Shown one piece after another: positions 49,620-57,513 of a stretch of 57,513 nucleotides of DNA (positions within the stretch are counted from its first letter, which is position 1; every line of letters begins with the position of its first letter). Position numbers and translations under genes: made by a program. The DNA lies in the NCBI GenBank assembly GCA_913049785.1, contig CAJWXP010000013.1:1-57513 (forward strand), given 5' to 3'. The notes beneath the pieces were generated by a model. The model made no database searches, was not told the DNA's origin, and worked only from the letters and a program-made list of their open reading frames with translations. The stretch is from an uncultured Dehalococcoidia bacterium (GTDB lineage: Bacteria > Chloroflexota > Dehalococcoidia > Lucifugimonadales > UBA1127).

Positions 49620-50006
49620 TTAAAAGACGCATGTGGTCTCTATCTCTATCTTCAAGCTCGGTCGGACCAGAGCTGCACAACCGATAAGGGTGTTCGTCGG
49701 GTAGTTGCCATCAAACATCTCCTCAAACATTGCATTGTTGGCTGCCCGGTTCTCAACCCACTCGTTCACGTCGGTTACAAACGTCGTCAGCTTCACCACG
49801 TCGTTCATGGCCTGGCCTTCCACTTCAAGAATGGCCTTAATGCGCCTCAACGCCTCTCGAAGTTGGTCGGGTAGAGAGCCTTGTTCGGCATCGCTTCCTC
49901 CGGCCGTGCAGCCAGCAATGAAGAACAGGTCACCCGCCTTGACGGCGCGGGAGTACAGGGCCGGGACCGGCGAGATATCGGGGTACTGCTTGTATTCCTT
50001 CTTCAC
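49620..50006 (-). CDS. RidA/YjgF family protein (copy 1)
   Basis: A 128-residue trimeric-fold RidA homologue with the family segments AVKAGDLFFIAGCTAGG, DQLREALRRIKAILEVEG and DVVKLTTFVTDVNEWVEN. The position of the deaminase Arg (R105 in RidA, in PARS or similar) is Asn here (YPTNTLIGCAAL), so it is not a standard enamine deaminase and belongs to a different Rid subgroup. It forms a cluster of three with the next two RidA entries. GGAAAACG-type sequence precedes the ATG. Confidence 0.9.
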   Translation of the reverse strand: MKKEYKQYPDISPVPALYSRAVKAGDLFFIAGCTAGGSDAEQGSLPDQLREALRRIKAILEVEGQAMNDVVKLTTFVTDVNEWVENRAANNAMFEEMFDGNYPTNTLIGCAALVRPSLKIEIETTCVF

Positions 50007-50060: not shown

Positions 50061-50438
50061 TTAGAAAACGGCAATCGCCTCTATCTCCACCTTCATACTT
50101 GGCAGGGCGAGTGCAGCACAACCGATCATGGTGTTGGGCGGGTACTTGCCCTGGAAGATGTCCTTGAAGACTGCGTTGATGGCGTCGCCGTTCGCTGCCC
50201 ACTCCTTTACGTCCGTGACGAACGTCGTGAGTTTGACGATGTCGGCGATGGACAGGCCTTCCGCCTCCAATACGCCCTTGATCTTCTCAAGGGTCAGGCG
50301 CACTTGATCCGGCAGGGGTGCTGTGCTGTCACCTGCGGTGCAACCTGCCATGTAGAACGTGTTGCCCACCTTGGTGGCTCGGGAGTAGGCGCCCATCACC
50401 GGCGCGATGTCAGGGTAGTTCTTGAATTCCTTGTCCAT
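50061..50438 (-). CDS. RidA/YjgF family protein (copy 2)
   Basis: A 125-residue paralogue of copy 1 with the same order of segments (ATKVGNTFYMAGCTAG, DQVRLTLEKIKGVLEAEG, DIVKLTTFVTDVKEW). The catalytic Arg position is again Asn (YPPNTMIGCAAL). The ends are EIEAIAVF and EIETTCVF respectively. It lies 54 bases upstream of copy 1 on the same strand. Substrate unknown; the absent Arg suggests hydrolysis or binding of another small molecule. Confidence 0.9.
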   Translation of the reverse strand: MDKEFKNYPDIAPVMGAYSRATKVGNTFYMAGCTAGDSTAPLPDQVRLTLEKIKGVLEAEGLSIADIVKLTTFVTDVKEWAANGDAINAVFKDIFQGKYPPNTMIGCAALALPSMKVEIEAIAVF

Positions 50439-50844: not shown

Positions 50845-52599
50845 CTACTCCTTGACCGCCAAGAACCGCTCAAAGTGGCTGACGGTTCCGAGCGGCACTC
50901 CAGACCACTTGTATGATGCTATAACCTTCGGGTTATAAACCAGCTCCTCTGGCTTCCACACCATTGGGATTGCAATGTGCAGGTCAAAGGTAATGTCTCC
51001 TGTTGTCCGCAAACGCTTATAGACTTCCTTGGTATCAATTACCTCTCGATGGAACGCGATCGCCTTGTCCATCTCTATAAGCTCAATAGCGCCTCCACGG
51101 GGTGACTCACATGAGCAATGGTGAACTCGGAACGTCTGAATATCAACAATGTTGCTCGTTTGATACACGATTCGACCCGTGAGGCCAAAAGCTCTCTGGA
51201 TAGCTCTTGTGACAGTTGCTTCGCGGGCATCAAGTTTAGCCTTAACACCAACTTCGATAAAGTACCCTGCCAAAGCCTCCATTACGTCGGCTTTCTCAGG
51301 AAGCCCACTGGAATGAGTTCCGTCGACCAGTATCTCCAAGGGGTTGTTGGGGCCATAGCCAGCTTCCGCCAGCAAGGCCTTGGCCGCAGCCGGATCGTAT
51401 CCATATTCCGCTTGGAATCTCCTGTCCCAATCTGGGTTCCAGTAAGACCGAGTAGGTACAAAGGCATGGTTGTGAACCGGGATACCCTTGCCACCGAAGA
51501 ATGCAGTGTTGATGGCATCACGATCAACCGCCTTACTCAAGGCTTTTCGCACCCTTATGTCTAGGAAAGGATCCTCACAATGGACATACCCACAAGGAGT
51601 ATTTTGCGTTTCATAGCCACCATACGTCTTGTCAATCACGGGTCCTTGGAACATCGCAGTTCGTTCTCGCGTCAGTACTTGGCCGGTAGCCACCGCCATA
51701 CCCTCGGACACCGCTTGGTTCTGCAAGTCCAACGGGAGTGTGGTGACATGGACTTCCGATGTGAGCAGCGATGCCAGCCGGGTGGAAGCTTCACTCGAGA
51801 ATCGGAACTCAATCTCTTCCCAGTCTGAAGTATAACGCCAGTGCTTGTAAGGAACTCGTTCAACTATGAAATTAACCCCTTGTGTGCGCTCTTTGAACTG
51901 GAAACCGCCTGTACCAGCGGGGGGTCTTGAAGTCAAATCTGGGTCACCACCTAGCTTCTCCAAATCTTTGGCGCTGAAAGGTTCACCTGAAATGACGTTC
52001 CAAGAAGATGAGTTATTCAGAATTTCCGGATTGGATTTGGATATGTTATAGACAATCTCATAGGGACTGACTATCTCAAGATCCACTGCACGATATTGGC
52101 TTCTGTGGGTATGTCGGGAATCTTCTTCGCCATGATTTTTCAACACAGCCGCTACATCGGCTGCAGAGAAATCACCGTTGTCACCGTGGAACCGGACACC
52201 CTCTCGGAGTTGGAATCGTATGGATATCCCGTCAGGCTCAACGGTCCATGATTCGGCCAATTGAGGTATGTGCTCTCCCGTATCCGCGTCGGCGCCGATA
52301 AGCGACTCATGGGTCGCCGCGAAGAACCAAGGGCCCCGGGGGCTTTCGTATCTCCAAGGCATGTTGGTTTCATTACTCGGTGCTGGCGTTGAAATAACCA
52401 GCCGTTTAACTACAGGCTTTGCCTCCGGAGCTGGTGCAACTGTGGCTGGTACCGCAGTTGCAGCCACTGCCGATGTCGAGGGCGAAGATGCGCCTGTAGC
52501 TCCGTCATCACCGTCGCTGCTACACGCCGCCATGAGCATCATTGCCATCAACCCGATAACTAAGATGCTCAAACCGCCACGAAAAGAACGAATAACCAT
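50845..52599 (-). CDS. Peptide/nickel-type ABC transporter substrate-binding lipoprotein (SBP_bac_5)
   Basis: A 584-residue solute-binding protein. The signal (MVIRSFRGGLSILVIGLMA) ends in lipobox MAACSS. Family segments are IPQLAESWTVEPDGISIRFQ, LREGVRFHGDNGDFSAADV and VRKALSKAVDRDAIN. The ATG at 52599 is supported by AAGGGAGG. No permease or ATPase is in the window, so it is an orphan SBP. It is paralogous to the one at the window end. Confidence 0.92.
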   Translation of the reverse strand: MVIRSFRGGLSILVIGLMAMMLMAACSSDGDDGATGASSPSTSAVAATAVPATVAPAPEAKPVVKRLVISTPAPSNETNMPWRYESPRGPWFFAATHESLIGADADTGEHIPQLAESWTVEPDGISIRFQLREGVRFHGDNGDFSAADVAAVLKNHGEEDSRHTHRSQYRAVDLEIVSPYEIVYNISKSNPEILNNSSSWNVISGEPFSAKDLEKLGGDPDLTSRPPAGTGGFQFKERTQGVNFIVERVPYKHWRYTSDWEEIEFRFSSEASTRLASLLTSEVHVTTLPLDLQNQAVSEGMAVATGQVLTRERTAMFQGPVIDKTYGGYETQNTPCGYVHCEDPFLDIRVRKALSKAVDRDAINTAFFGGKGIPVHNHAFVPTRSYWNPDWDRRFQAEYGYDPAAAKALLAEAGYGPNNPLEILVDGTHSSGLPEKADVMEALAGYFIEVGVKAKLDAREATVTRAIQRAFGLTGRIVYQTSNIVDIQTFRVHHCSCESPRGGAIELIEMDKAIAFHREVIDTKEVYKRLRTTGDITFDLHIAIPMVWKPEELVYNPKVIASYKWSGVPLGTVSHFERFLAVKE

Positions 52600-52699
52600 G
52601 AATGCCTCCCTTGTTTTGTTCTCCTTAAGGAGCGTCGCCGGATACATTTCCTTCTTTAAAACAGTCTAATCTTAATGAGAAGTGCTATGCAACCACGCA

Positions 52700-52839: not shown

Positions 52840-53224
52840 CTAAAAAGCGGCAATTGCCTCAATCTCCGCTGGCAGAGTCGGCTTAAGCGATTCTGACATG
52901 TGTATAACGAAATTCCCGGAGTTGTAACCCTGAACATCTCCTCGATGATCCCGTTTATTTCATCGCGGTTTTTGCCCACCCTTCAATGTCGATCACAAAG
53001 GTGGTCAGCTTGGCCACATCGTCCAAAGTCTGTCCTTCTGCCCCCTTGATCGCTTTGATGCGCCCCAGTGTTTCCCGCAATTGGGCTGGGAAACCCTTCG
53101 TGCTCGGCAGAACTGTCGTTGGCCATGCAGCCAGCGATGAAGAACATATTATCGACCCTTACCGCCCGGGTGTATTGGCTAGATACCGGTGCTATATCCG
53201 GGTACTGCTTGTACTTTTTTCCAT
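52840..53224 (-). pseudogene. RidA/YjgF family protein (copy 3), frameshifted
   Basis: The ATG at 53224 begins MEK and the frame shifts at an A6 run, then reads KYKQYPDIAPVSSQYTRAV and MFFIAGCMANDSSAEHEGFP. It shifts at a C3 run to AQLRETLGRIKAIKGAEG then LDDVAKLTTFVIDIEGWAK. It shifts again at an A5 run to NRDEINGIIEEMF and once more near a G3 run before the final AEIEAIAAF. All four breaks are at homopolymers. The reconstructed protein is full-length and clearly homologous to the two intact copies. It may be a real gene with read errors. Confidence 0.75.
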
Positions 53225-54034
53225 GAACCCTCTCCTCCCTGTGTAAGTGCACAGCACAATATGGGAACAAAGAAGCAGGGTCTAAACCGCGGGGCGGTTC
53301 TGCTGCAGGTTGACGGGCCAGCGTTCGCTCAGGCATATCCAGGTCCGTGGACTGCGAAAGGTTGCTACTCACTGTTATCTGTCTCTGATTGCGGTGCAGA
53401 CTACCGAAAAACTGCAAGAATAATCGTTGCTTGTGTTCCAAACCCAGCAAGAGTTGGGATTACCTTGAAGATGAGTCTATCTTTAGAGAACGCTGAAACA
53501 TCAGTGAGGCGTTTATTGATTTGCCCCATGGCAACTTCAGACTTGTATCCATCAGGGACAGAGATATATTGCCAACCAGATTCTAAAGTGACTGGGAATT
53601 CCTCAAGTCATTCAGCGATTATTGTTGGGGCGATCATTCCTTTGAACATTAGACGTAACCACTAAATGAATCTTCGGTGTTTCGTGGGAGGAACCTCCAT
53701 CGGAGCGCCCGGTAACTGTAATCGTCACTTACATGCCAACTTAGCAACCTGTCCAATAAGGAAGAGACTTGAGCAGAGAGAGACGTCTCCACCCTCTTGG
53801 GCTGGCGTGGATGATAAAATTATGTCCTTCACCTTCTATATTTACGGATGGGTAGTTAGGCACCACTTTCTTCCAAGACATGAATAGGGTCATTCTACCC
53901 CTCCTTATCCCAAACAATATGTAAGATGCTCAATTGACAGCGTTATAGTCGTTCACTAGACTCAGGTGGAAGATTTCTTTTTACCCACCGACCTATAAAA
54001 ACCGCATCTCGTACGCTCACACGGAGGACCCGGC
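53225..54034. other. Intergenic region without a supported gene
   Basis: No gene is convincing. Plus-strand frames have no family likeness. On the minus strand a 46-residue frame (MSWKKVVPNYPSVN..., start at 53881) and an 83-codon frame from ATG 53649 to 53401 with an internal TGA at 53610 look protein-like but lack ribosome sites. They may be decayed genes. The region is AT-richer than its flanks. Confidence 0.4.
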
Positions 54035-56080
54035 ATGGCCCATTACAAAGCAAGTGAGGCCCAGGATTGGGCTTGGGAGACGTTGAAGGGCCAGTGGAGT
54101 ACCCTCATCACGCCGTTCGAGCAGAATGGCGACCTGGATGAGCAGGGTCTACGTAGGAACATCAGACACGTCAGAAAGCTCGGCACCCGAGGGGCTGGCT
54201 GTACCTGGGGCATGGGCGAGTTCTGGAGTCTGACTCACGATGAACGCGTACGCGTGATGGACATTGTCGCAGAAGAGGCCGCCGGCGTATGGCCCGTTGC
54301 AGCCCACGTCACCCACACATCGAGTCGAGAGACCGTTGATCTGGCACGACATGCGGAGTCAGTTGGCTTCGACATGTTGGTGATCGCGGCACCATACATG
54401 GCGGCCAAGACCGAAGTCCAGGTCATCGAGTACGTCAAAACCCTGAGCGACAACACCAACCTTGCCATCATGTTCTACAACTCTCCCCAGTTCGGCATCG
54501 TCATGAGCCCCCAGGGGCTGAAGCAAATTTGTGAGATACAGCAGGTCGTTGGCGTCAAAGAGGCCAGTTTCAACCAGCAGTTATCCATCGAAACGCACCT
54601 GTCTCTGGGCACAGACTACGTGATAAGCACGCCCGACGAGTGGATCTACCCCTTCGCCCAGGACCTGGGGTTCCAGCAACAGGTGATGTTTGCCAACACC
54701 TCCGACTGGCGTTTCGATACGCTTGAGGCGAACTACTACGTGCAGTTTATCGAACGTGCCAGCACCGGTGACTACGACGATGATTTCTACGAGACCCACT
54801 TAAGGCGTCTCAACGAGCTATCGGACACATGGTGGACACGCACAGCCGACAAGAACGGCGGCACGTTACCCGTAGCAATGATCAAGTATTGGGGCGAGTT
54901 GATGGGTATGGCCGGTGGCCCCACTCGGCAGCCTTTACCCCAGTTCACAGCCGAGGAAAAGGCCCAACTAAAAGAGGAGTTGACTCCATTGAAACCTAAG
55001 ACACCAGTAGCCACAACACCCTACAAACCCCGTGCAACCTGGCTGACCGGCAACAACGCATTTGCCACAGGCATGCTGCTCATGGTCAGTGTCCAGAACG
55101 TTGAGGAGGCCCTTGAGGCCGAACGCGGCGGCGCAGACGTTGTAGACGTCAAGAATCTCCAGGAGGCGCTGGTTGGGTCTGGTCATCCCACGACTGTGAG
55201 GCAGGTCCGGGCACAGATCCAGCCAGAGAACCACGTCAGTATCACGCTGGGCGTTGTGCCGAATCAGGCTGGCACCGTGGCAATGGCTGCGTATGCTGCA
55301 GCGGTGATGGATGCAACTTCTGTGAAGATCGGATTCATGCAGACCGGGTACGATGTGGCGGTGGATATCCTCAAAGAGGCCCGACGGGCGATGGACGGCT
55401 ACAACACCAAGCTGGTGGGCTCGCTCTTCGCCGATAACCTGCTCCACGAGGGCGGGCTTGATCCCAAGTTGATGGTGCAGCTTGCTACTGACGGCGAGTG
55501 CGACGGCTTCCTGATCGACACACTCATCAAGGACGGTCGGAACCTGTTCGATTTCCTCACCGAGGCTGAGTTGCACGACATGGTCCTGGAGGGCAAAAAG
55601 CTTGGTCTCAGCACCGCACTGTCGGGTCACCTCAAGCTTGATGACCTGGACGAACTTGCCCGCATCAACCCGGATATCGTTGGTGTGCGTGGCGCGGTAT
55701 GCAGCACCGGAGACCGTGACCGTGCCGTCGCCTGGGAGGCAGTGGCCGAGTTCAAGCGACAGATAGACTTGCGGAAGAGCGGCGAAATCAGCGTCCGGCC
55801 TGATGCTGCGACTAACGGCTCCAACGGCGATTCGCCTGTGGTGACAACCGGCGGAGGCTGGGTGGTCATCGATGGCAGGGGCAAGAGTTGCGCCGGGGTC
55901 ATTGCCGCGCTGGAGAAGCAGACCAAGGCAGATCATACTTCAATGGTAGAGACGATCCTTGGCGATGCATTGAACATCTTCGATGTCATCCTCTGGACGG
56001 AGAAGGGTGGCCACGCACTGATCAACCAGCGTGATGAGGGTGATGGAACCGTCCGCGTGCTCATCCAGCCAAAGGCCTAG
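54035..56080 (+). CDS. Three-domain fusion: DapA-like aldolase, MfnB-like furan-phosphate synthase, TusA-like domain
   Basis: An uninterrupted 681-residue protein behind GGAGG. Residues 18-325 are a DHDPS/NAL-type Schiff-base aldolase with FYNSP (Tyr148) and VGVKEAS (Lys175). Residues about 345-590 match MfnB, the (5-formylfuran-3-yl)methyl phosphate synthase of methanofuran synthesis: MLLMVSVQNVEEALEAERGG, DVVDVKNLQEALVG (Lys373), VKIGFMQTG (Lys431), DTLIKDGR (Asp495, Lys499) and DIVGVRGAVCSTGDRD. Lys373 and Lys431 are 58 apart, as are Lys27 and Lys85 of the M. jannaschii enzyme. Residues about 605-681 (WVVIDGRGKSCAGVIAALE, Cys619) resemble TusA/SirA but lack CPxP. The reaction is unknown. 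Confidence 0.8.
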   Translation: MAHYKASEAQDWAWETLKGQWSTLITPFEQNGDLDEQGLRRNIRHVRKLGTRGAGCTWGMGEFWSLTHDERVRVMDIVAEEAAGVWPVAAHVTHTSSRETVDLARHAESVGFDMLVIAAPYMAAKTEVQVIEYVKTLSDNTNLAIMFYNSPQFGIVMSPQGLKQICEIQQVVGVKEASFNQQLSIETHLSLGTDYVISTPDEWIYPFAQDLGFQQQVMFANTSDWRFDTLEANYYVQFIERASTGDYDDDFYETHLRRLNELSDTWWTRTADKNGGTLPVAMIKYWGELMGMAGGPTRQPLPQFTAEEKAQLKEELTPLKPKTPVATTPYKPRATWLTGNNAFATGMLLMVSVQNVEEALEAERGGADVVDVKNLQEALVGSGHPTTVRQVRAQIQPENHVSITLGVVPNQAGTVAMAAYAAAVMDATSVKIGFMQTGYDVAVDILKEARRAMDGYNTKLVGSLFADNLLHEGGLDPKLMVQLATDGECDGFLIDTLIKDGRNLFDFLTEAELHDMVLEGKKLGLSTALSGHLKLDDLDELARINPDIVGVRGAVCSTGDRDRAVAWEAVAEFKRQIDLRKSGEISVRPDAATNGSNGDSPVVTTGGGWVVIDGRGKSCAGVIAALEKQTKADHTSMVETILGDALNIFDVILWTEKGGHALINQRDEGDGTVRVLIQPKA

Positions 56081-56285: not shown

Positions 56286-57513
56286 TTACTCCATGACAGC
56301 CTTCAACCCGTCCGGGTCACTATAGGTTCCACTAAGGGCACCGGAGTAGGTATAACTGGAGATGATGCCCGGGTTAAACACTGCTTCCGGTGGTAGCCAG
56401 AAAAGTGGGACGTCCATGTGTAGGTCATAGATTGTGTTTCCAATGTCTATCAACTGGGCGTTTCGCTTGTCGGCATCCAACTCGGCAGATGCAACCCGCA
56501 ACGGGACGTTCACTGTGGGCTGGGACATGGTGAAGCCAGCCGCAGATATCAACGATGCGTTCCAAATCTTCAGGCCAAACAGGTGGGCAGAAGACGTGCC
56601 GTTAATGGTGGCGGCGTTGGTATATTCCCATTCCCTATACGCCGACCGGTAAACAGCCTGGTCAACTTGCTGTGTATCGATCTCCATTCCCACGGCAGAC
56701 CAGAAACCTGCCACTGCGTCAGCGACATCAAGCGAGCCAGCGAAGAATGGCAGGTTCCTGGCAAGCATGGTTACCTTGGCGGGATTGTCAGGCCCATAGC
56801 CTGCTTCGGCCAGCAACGCTTTAGCGGCATCCGGGTCATACCCGTATTCATCAGCGAACCGAGTCTTCCACTCAGGGTTCCAAGCAGGGCGGGTCTCGGC
56901 GAAGGTATTGAGGTACATCGGGGTGCCCTTGCCGCCAAAGAGGGAGTTCAATTCTTCTCGGTCGATCGCCTTGCTCATGGCCTTTCTGACGCGAACATCT
57001 GAAACAGGGCCGCTTGGCTCAAACCTGAAGGTATCCGTGGAAGGATCCACGAAGCAGCAGAGCAGGCTTACAAATGTTCTAAGGGCAGGTACGTTGCCCC
57101 GCGCGATTTCATAGCCGCGATTCGTTGCTTCAACAATCAGGTCATCCGGGAGACTGGTGACATGAATTTCATCTGTCAGGAGTGCAGCCAATCGGGTGGA
57201 TGCCTCTGACTGGAAGCGGGACTCGAACTCCTGGAAGTCCGGGGTAGAGCGCCAGTGGTCGTAAGACACACGCTCAAACGCTATGAATGTGCCAACGCCA
57301 CGCTCTTTAAACTGGTAGTTCGCTGTTCCAGGCGGAGGAGCGGCTTCAGGGTCAGTGGGCTCTCCGTTAGCATCGAAGAACGCCTTGCTGGAAATCTCAA
57401 ACCCTGATTGGGAGTCCGAGAGGTTGCTCAGGAAATCCGCGTCCGGATTGTTGAAACGAAAAACAACTTCGTAGTCGTTAACGATCTCGATGTCATCAAT
57501 TCGCTGGAAATAC
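56286..57513 (-). CDS. Peptide/nickel-type ABC transporter substrate-binding protein, 5' end outside the window
   Basis: The frame is open to the right edge, so the N-terminus and signal peptide are outside. The visible 408 residues are homologous to the binding protein at 50845-52599: FKERGVGTFIAFERVSYDHW, LLTDEIHVTSLPDDL, DVRVRKAMSKAIDREELN and YDPDAAKALLAEAGYGPDNP. It again lacks a transport partner in view. Confidence 0.9.
   Translation of the reverse strand, partial: YFQRIDDIEIVNDYEVVFRFNNPDADFLSNLSDSQSGFEISSKAFFDANGEPTDPEAAPPPGTANYQFKERGVGTFIAFERVSYDHWRSTPDFQEFESRFQSEASTRLAALLTDEIHVTSLPDDLIVEATNRGYEIARGNVPALRTFVSLLCCFVDPSTDTFRFEPSGPVSDVRVRKAMSKAIDREELNSLFGGKGTPMYLNTFAETRPAWNPEWKTRFADEYGYDPDAAKALLAEAGYGPDNPAKVTMLARNLPFFAGSLDVADAVAGFWSAVGMEIDTQQVDQAVYRSAYREWEYTNAATINGTSSAHLFGLKIWNASLISAAGFTMSQPTVNVPLRVASAELDADKRNAQLIDIGNTIYDLHMDVPLFWLPPEAVFNPGIISSYTYSGALSGTYSDPDGLKAVME

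Follow-up and report, generated by a model that had tools for sequence, protein, structure and literature searches.

The window, meaning the whole stretch of 57,513 nucleotides analysed here, comes from a SAR202-clade Chloroflexota bacterium with a genome of 2.15 Mb; among its near relatives, those with a name are MAGs assigned to SAR202, Dehalococcoidia or Chloroflexi. Positions 54035-56080 of the forward strand form a single open reading frame that runs from ATG to stop over 681 codons and, as read from the sequence, has no internal stop. The first-pass annotation had described it as an uninterrupted fusion of DapA-like, MfnB-like and TusA-like domains. The frame stands as described, and all three domain assignments hold by sequence and by structure model. 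The features of the gene are the following:

54035-56080 (+): complete fusion gene of 681 aa, DapA-like, MfnB-like and TusA-like
54035-54994 (+): aa 1-320, DapA/NanA-type class I aldolase domain (PF00701, E 1.3e-32; Foldseek to DHDPS, TM ~0.8)
54476-54478 (+): Tyr148
54557-54559 (+): Schiff-base Lys175
54995-55072 (+): aa 321-346, inter-domain linker (pLDDT <50 at 325-343), the site of the intergenic gap in split relatives
55073-55765 (+): aa 347-577, MfnB-type TIM barrel (PF04476, E 3.9e-54; 4rc1, TM 0.89-0.92)
55151-55153, 55325-55327, 55517-55519 and 55529-55531 (+): tetrad of the MfnB domain, Lys373, Lys431, Asp495 and Lys499
55253-55255 and 55628-55630 (+): Val407 and His532, residues of the MfnB domain specific to the SAR202 clade
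55766-55852 (+): aa 578-606, second linker, variable (pLDDT <50 at 590-606; dN/dS 0.22)
55853-56071 (+): aa 607-679, TusA-fold domain, b-a-b-a-b-b
55889-55891 (+): Cys619, at the start of helix 1 of the TusA-fold domain

A Pfam scan of the 681-aa protein matched the DHDPS family at aa 18-316 (E 1.3e-32), 4HFCP_synth at aa 349-573 (E 3.9e-54) and, below threshold, TusA at aa 611-678 (E 0.011). The full-length AlphaFold2 model, built with 71 sequences, reached a mean pLDDT of 85, with low-confidence linkers at 325-343 and 590-606. Because its pTM is low (0.52), the model does not fix how the domains are arranged relative to one another.

The neighbours of the fusion gene on the host contig include a Rieske oxygenase, RidA genes and extracellular solute-binding proteins. 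Two of the latter, both of family 5 (SBP_bac_5), flank the fusion gene at 50845-52647 and 56286-57512 (-), and no permease genes were noted beside the pair in the part examined. Two RidA genes are intact (49620-50006 and 50061-50438). A third RidA copy is present as a remnant at 52840-53230 (-) that is spread over three frames, with the pieces YKQYPDIAPVSSQYTRAV.., ..LRETLGRIKAIKGAEGQTLDDVAKLTTF.. and ..LPAEIEAIAAF; it is a decayed tandem copy.

Distribution and fusion history

The fusion, described at first as novel, is not confined to this bacterium and is a SAR202-wide unit. PF04476 was found in 105 of the 197 genomes of the order, as a single copy in 103 of these 105, and a sample of 400 Chloroflexota genomes held the family in two, both members of the host's order. 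Relatives were collected with peptide patterns taken from this protein, which restricts the set to close relatives. Among the 66 members analysed, 48 show the same domain order in one three-domain protein of 672-740 aa, as the first-pass annotation had proposed to look for. The other 18 are split: a DapA gene immediately precedes a same-strand MfnB-TusA gene, at a distance of -8 to +205 bp in 18/18 cases. The fusion of MfnB to TusA is common to the fused and split kinds in every member examined, and the association of the three parts is constant in the SAR202 relatives covered.

In the phylogenetic tree, the three-domain fusions make up one side of a branch with a support of 100/99. The fusion of the DapA part, or its loss, therefore occurred once, and the fusion of a pre-existing adjacent unit is the likelier direction over loss. 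A sister genus in the host's family (G005/L061) has split genes that group with the split set, while the host's genus lies inside the fused clade. As this placement suggests, the fused gene may have been transferred between SAR202 lineages or families. Another member (L100:549-2567) lies on a contig labelled Planctomycetota and sits deep in the SAR202 tree beside L102; the contig is probably mislabelled or misbinned.

Compared with nearest relatives, dN/dS was 0.03-0.07 in each of the three domains, which indicates strong purifying selection on each part. For the L005 pair, the second linker had a dN/dS of 0.22 versus 0.06-0.07 in the flanking domains. Given these per-domain values and the 48 of 66 members with a fused frame, single-contig genomes included, an assembly join or a chance frame is ruled out, and with it the sequencing join of separate genes that would have undone the first-pass reading.

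No conserved partner gene was found across the neighbourhoods of ~60 members. An AMP-forming CoA ligase, spermidine synthase/SpeD, or ThiD-IleRS-MutM stand nearby in single lineages only (names read from the sequences, not by family search), and Rieske and RidA genes adjoin the fusion gene recurrently in the host's genus only. The Rieske, RidA and binding-protein neighbours, earlier cited as context, are thus genus-specific rather than conserved with the gene and give no evidence of a shared pathway. The lack of a conserved wider operon suggests that the DapA-MfnB-TusA unit is largely self-contained.

Active sites of the three domains

The first domain shares with the DapA/N-acetylneuraminate lyase family (PF00701, COG0329) the class I aldolase barrel, the Schiff-base lysine and the catalytic tyrosine. 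It matched DHDPS chains in Foldseek with a TM of ~0.8, and Lys175 and Tyr148 are invariant in 66/66 rows of the alignment. The signature of DHDPS proper (the Thr-Thr of GTTGE and the Arg after YNxPxR) was not found on alignment to 3si9: the fusion protein reads GMGE for GTTGE and YNSPQF for YNIPSR, so that, unlike in DHDPS, Thr-Thr is replaced by Gly-Met and the substrate-binding Arg by Phe. The SAR202 domain has conserved clade motifs of its own, MGEFWSL and MFANTSDWRFD. The DapA part reached no NCBIfam equivalog cut-off, and its best scores, all far below cut-off, include 5-dehydro-4-deoxyglucarate dehydratase and KDG-type aldolases. A furfural/benzaldehyde-pyruvate aldolase of the NahE type is not favoured, as the profile score was 26.8 bits for NahE versus 91.9 for the best DHDPS chain with a comparable profile.

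The middle domain scored 184 bits against PF04476, for which the curated cut-off is 22.4. By sequence, the nearest protein of solved structure is MJ1099, the MfnB of M. jannaschii (PDB 4rc1, 4u9p; E 3.2e-41; 37-38% domain identity), and the modelled domain superimposed on 4rc1 in Foldseek with a TM of 0.89-0.92 and an rmsd of 1.8-2.0 Å. The first-pass annotation would have been undone by a structure model without the MfnB pocket; the domain models as MfnB. Lys373, Lys431, Asp495 and Lys499 align with Lys27, Lys85, Asp151 and Lys155 of MJ1099, the first three of which we take to be catalytic residues, and the tetrad is invariant in 66/66 SAR202 rows. The residues had thus been named correctly and the reported match in spacing needs one correction, since the interval from the second to the third residue is 64 versus 66 in MJ1099. 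Arg561 aligns with Arg217 of MJ1099, and the equivalent of Asp25 is also kept. For the M. jannaschii enzyme, it has been proposed that two glyceraldehyde-3-phosphates are bound, that phosphate is eliminated from one while the other is isomerised, and that the two are condensed to 4-HFC-P. In that enzyme, Lys155 takes part in catalysis or substrate binding, and Arg217, in a capping loop, is the presumed phosphate-binding residue (PMC11365854).

Unlike MJ1099, the SAR202 protein is fused to two other domains and comes from genomes that lack a methanofuran pathway (see below), and its pocket differs. We compared the 66 SAR202 rows with 13 other MfnB proteins (MJ1099, four actinobacterial and eight proteobacterial). 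Nine positions set the two groups apart, being constant or nearly so in one and holding a different, constant residue in the other. At the end of strand 3, Asp61 is replaced by Val407 and, in the strand-7 loop, Ser188 by His532 in 66/66 SAR202 rows, as are Pro29 by Leu375 and Gly32 by Ala378; the loop after Lys27 differs clade-wide at Pro29, Gly32, Leu34 and Ala36. The MfnB equivalog profile gave 185.7 bits, below its cut-off of 341. The active-site face of a TIM barrel is made up of the strand ends and the loops that follow them. Given that the changed residues lie at such strand ends and loops, we infer from the alignment that the pocket of the SAR202 clade has altered specificity. The earlier claim that MfnB chemistry is kept is doubtful in view of the uniform Val and His at the positions of Asp61 and Ser188.

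The TusA assignment, below threshold in the full-length scan, was clearer for the isolated C-terminal domain, which matched the TusA profile with an E of 2.9e-4. The TusA model was also matched by 15 of 21 relatives, and one split relative exceeded the Pfam cut-off with 28.8 bits. Modelled in isolation, the domain reached a pLDDT of 92; its best folds in Foldseek were the SirA-like 3hz7, YeeD and TusA, with structural alignments (VIA-align) at Z 11.6, 11.4 and 11.0 and rmsd of 1.9-2.2 Å over 72-76 residues. Alba, Smr and IF3-C, which ranked below these TusA relatives, share a common arrangement and were not counted as relatives. At least 97% of the 66 rows keep Gly616, Lys617, Cys619 and Ala620. 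Like members of the TusA/SirA/YeeD family (PF01206), the domain thus has the fold (Z ~11) and, where helix 1 begins, a clade-conserved cysteine; the cysteine-bearing domain that was first described is real. Unlike them, it is fused to an aldolase and has no CPxP motif around Cys619, where it reads CAGV (S-C-A-G-V in this protein). As CPxP is missing, sulfur carrying and transfer by the domain are putative; Cys619 might have a structural role, or the domain might act in assembly or regulation.

Methanofuran genes and other bacterial MfnB homologues

The genome of the host and those of its relatives in the order were searched for genes of methanofuran and tetrahydromethanopterin metabolism, a check of the kind recommended in the first-pass annotation. 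The formyltransferase FTR (PF02741) and MfnF (TIGR03123) were each found in 0 of 40 order relatives and MCH (PF02289) in 0 of 60, the host's own genome being included in all three counts, while methanogen controls were positive. A methanofuran/H4MPT pathway is therefore rejected. Consistent with the suggestion that the gene belongs to a new pathway, the absence of these genes makes a separate pathway likely.

The first-pass annotation had pointed to a bacterium outside the methylotrophs, but MfnB homologues from such bacteria are already annotated in public genomes, e.g., in Streptomyces. Bacterial methylofuran clusters carry homologues of MfnB, MfnE and MfnF together with fhc genes (PMC8141765). 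In Azospirillum, MfnB is located near formylmethanofuran dehydrogenase, and the SAR202 gene is not of that kind. On two Streptomyces plasmids (L111:8980-13437 and L112:9001-13263), a conserved operon combines genes for an MfnB homologue, an aldehyde dehydrogenase, an alcohol dehydrogenase and a methyltransferase, and possibly represents a candidate furan pathway. As in SAR202, the enzyme is of the MfnB type (35-39% identity), and the bacterium has no methylofuran cluster next to the gene. Unlike the SAR202 fusion, the Streptomyces protein is stand-alone, keeps the canonical Asp61 and Ser188 and has other partners. A Phyllobacterium plasmid protein annotated as MfnB (L117:3992-5188) is 398 aa long, with ~160 residues beyond a plain MfnB, and is followed by a dihydroneopterin aldolase and a flavoprotein; it is a further example of an extended MfnB.

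Candidate reactions of the fusion protein

Judged from its sequence, the fusion appears to consist of two re-specialised aldolases joined to a cysteine carrier domain, and not to be a methanofuran enzyme. Our best reading, which we put forward tentatively, is that this SAR202-specific protein pairs two biosynthetic aldolases with a cysteine that serves as covalent carrier, and turns central metabolites into one small molecule. The DapA-like barrel, with Lys175 and Tyr148, would handle a 2-oxo acid, e.g., pyruvate or a 2-keto-3-deoxy sugar acid, and would join or release an aldehyde. The MfnB-like barrel, with Lys373, Lys431, Asp495 and Lys499, would perform an MfnB-type condensation of phosphorylated three-carbon units, and its changed pocket probably takes another partner or yields another product than 4-HFC-P. 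Beside this barrel, Cys619 of the TusA-like domain may be presented either in persulfide form or as an anchor for a thioester/thiohemiacetal. The intermediate may pass between the parts, because the domains are physically linked. In this way, we infer a triose phosphate and a 2-oxo acid as substrates, a biosynthetic direction, a carrier role for Cys619 and channelling.

The alternative that fares best, although we consider it rather unlikely, is that the middle domain is a true 4-HFC-P synthase. It would join two glyceraldehyde-3-phosphates into 4-(hydroxymethyl)-2-furancarboxaldehyde phosphate, a furan aldehyde that the DapA and TusA domains would modify to a new compound other than methanofuran. 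A pyruvate aldolase could plausibly use a furan aldehyde as its electrophile, and the four catalytic residues, the equivalents of Arg217 and Asp25, the identity of 37-38% and the TM of ~0.9 to MJ1099 all fit such an enzyme. They have to be weighed against the uniform changes at Asp61, Ser188, Pro29, Gly32 and other positions relative to the 13 MfnB proteins, the equivalog score of 185.7 bits against a cut-off of 341, and the absence of FTR, MfnF and MCH.

Somewhat less probable still is a catabolic channel, in which the DapA domain cleaves a 2-keto-3-deoxy sugar acid to pyruvate and an aldehyde, the MfnB-like domain consumes or detoxifies the aldehyde, and the TusA-like domain binds it covalently or is structural. 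Paralogues of COG0329, the DapA family, are among the abundant SAR202 sets and have been placed in non-phosphorylative pathways of sugar and sugar-acid catabolism (PMC10444878), and this, together with the many reactions of the DapA family, makes a catabolic direction possible. The sub-cut-off NCBIfam scores of the DapA part for 5-dehydro-4-deoxyglucarate dehydratase and KDG-type aldolases point the same way. Unlike the expanded, multi-copy catabolic paralogues, however, the fusion is a near-universal single copy among its carriers and has no sugar-pathway operon, and simple cleavage does not need a conserved lysine tetrad of the MfnB type.

A furan or sulfur cofactor is a possible product. 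The specific version, in which a sulfur-containing or furan-type small molecule of SAR202 (cofactor or signal) receives its skeleton from triose phosphate by the MfnB-like barrel, gains or loses a pyruvate unit by the DapA-like barrel and obtains its sulfur from Cys619, strikes us as improbable. Such an insertion of sulfur would formally resemble ThiG/ThiS, but with other protein families. The thiazole of thiamine is made from pyruvate, glyceraldehyde-3-phosphate and carrier-bound sulfur, a similar set of inputs. That the fusion is itself an alternative thiazole synthase replacing ThiG is nonetheless very improbable, since 44 of 57 carriers (98 genomes compared) also have a full-length ThiG, which speaks against a general replacement even though the gene is carried by 13 of 16 genomes without one (Fisher p 0.053, uncorrected for kinship, with five from one genus) and follows ThiD-IleRS-MutM in one lineage. 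As a separate observation, full-length ThiG is absent from 5/5 genomes of the host's genus (G000-G004), while most of the order has one; thiazole synthesis has likely been lost in this genus.

In a literature search that was mostly outside subscription journals, we found no description of a DapA-MfnB-TusA fusion. The component families are known; their combination and the MfnB pocket are new. Of the planktonic prokaryotes of the deep sea, 10-30% belong to SAR202 (PMC10444878). The unit is present in about half of the genomes sampled from the order, almost always in single copy. That so conserved an enzyme has no assigned pathway leaves a definite gap in the metabolic picture of this abundant group. 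Together, the conserved unit and the lack of a methanofuran pathway point to a separate small-molecule pathway. To our knowledge, only one reaction has been described for the MfnB family. With the same lysines, a changed pocket and a built-in cysteine carrier, the SAR202 clade thus allows one to test directly whether the family also catalyses others.
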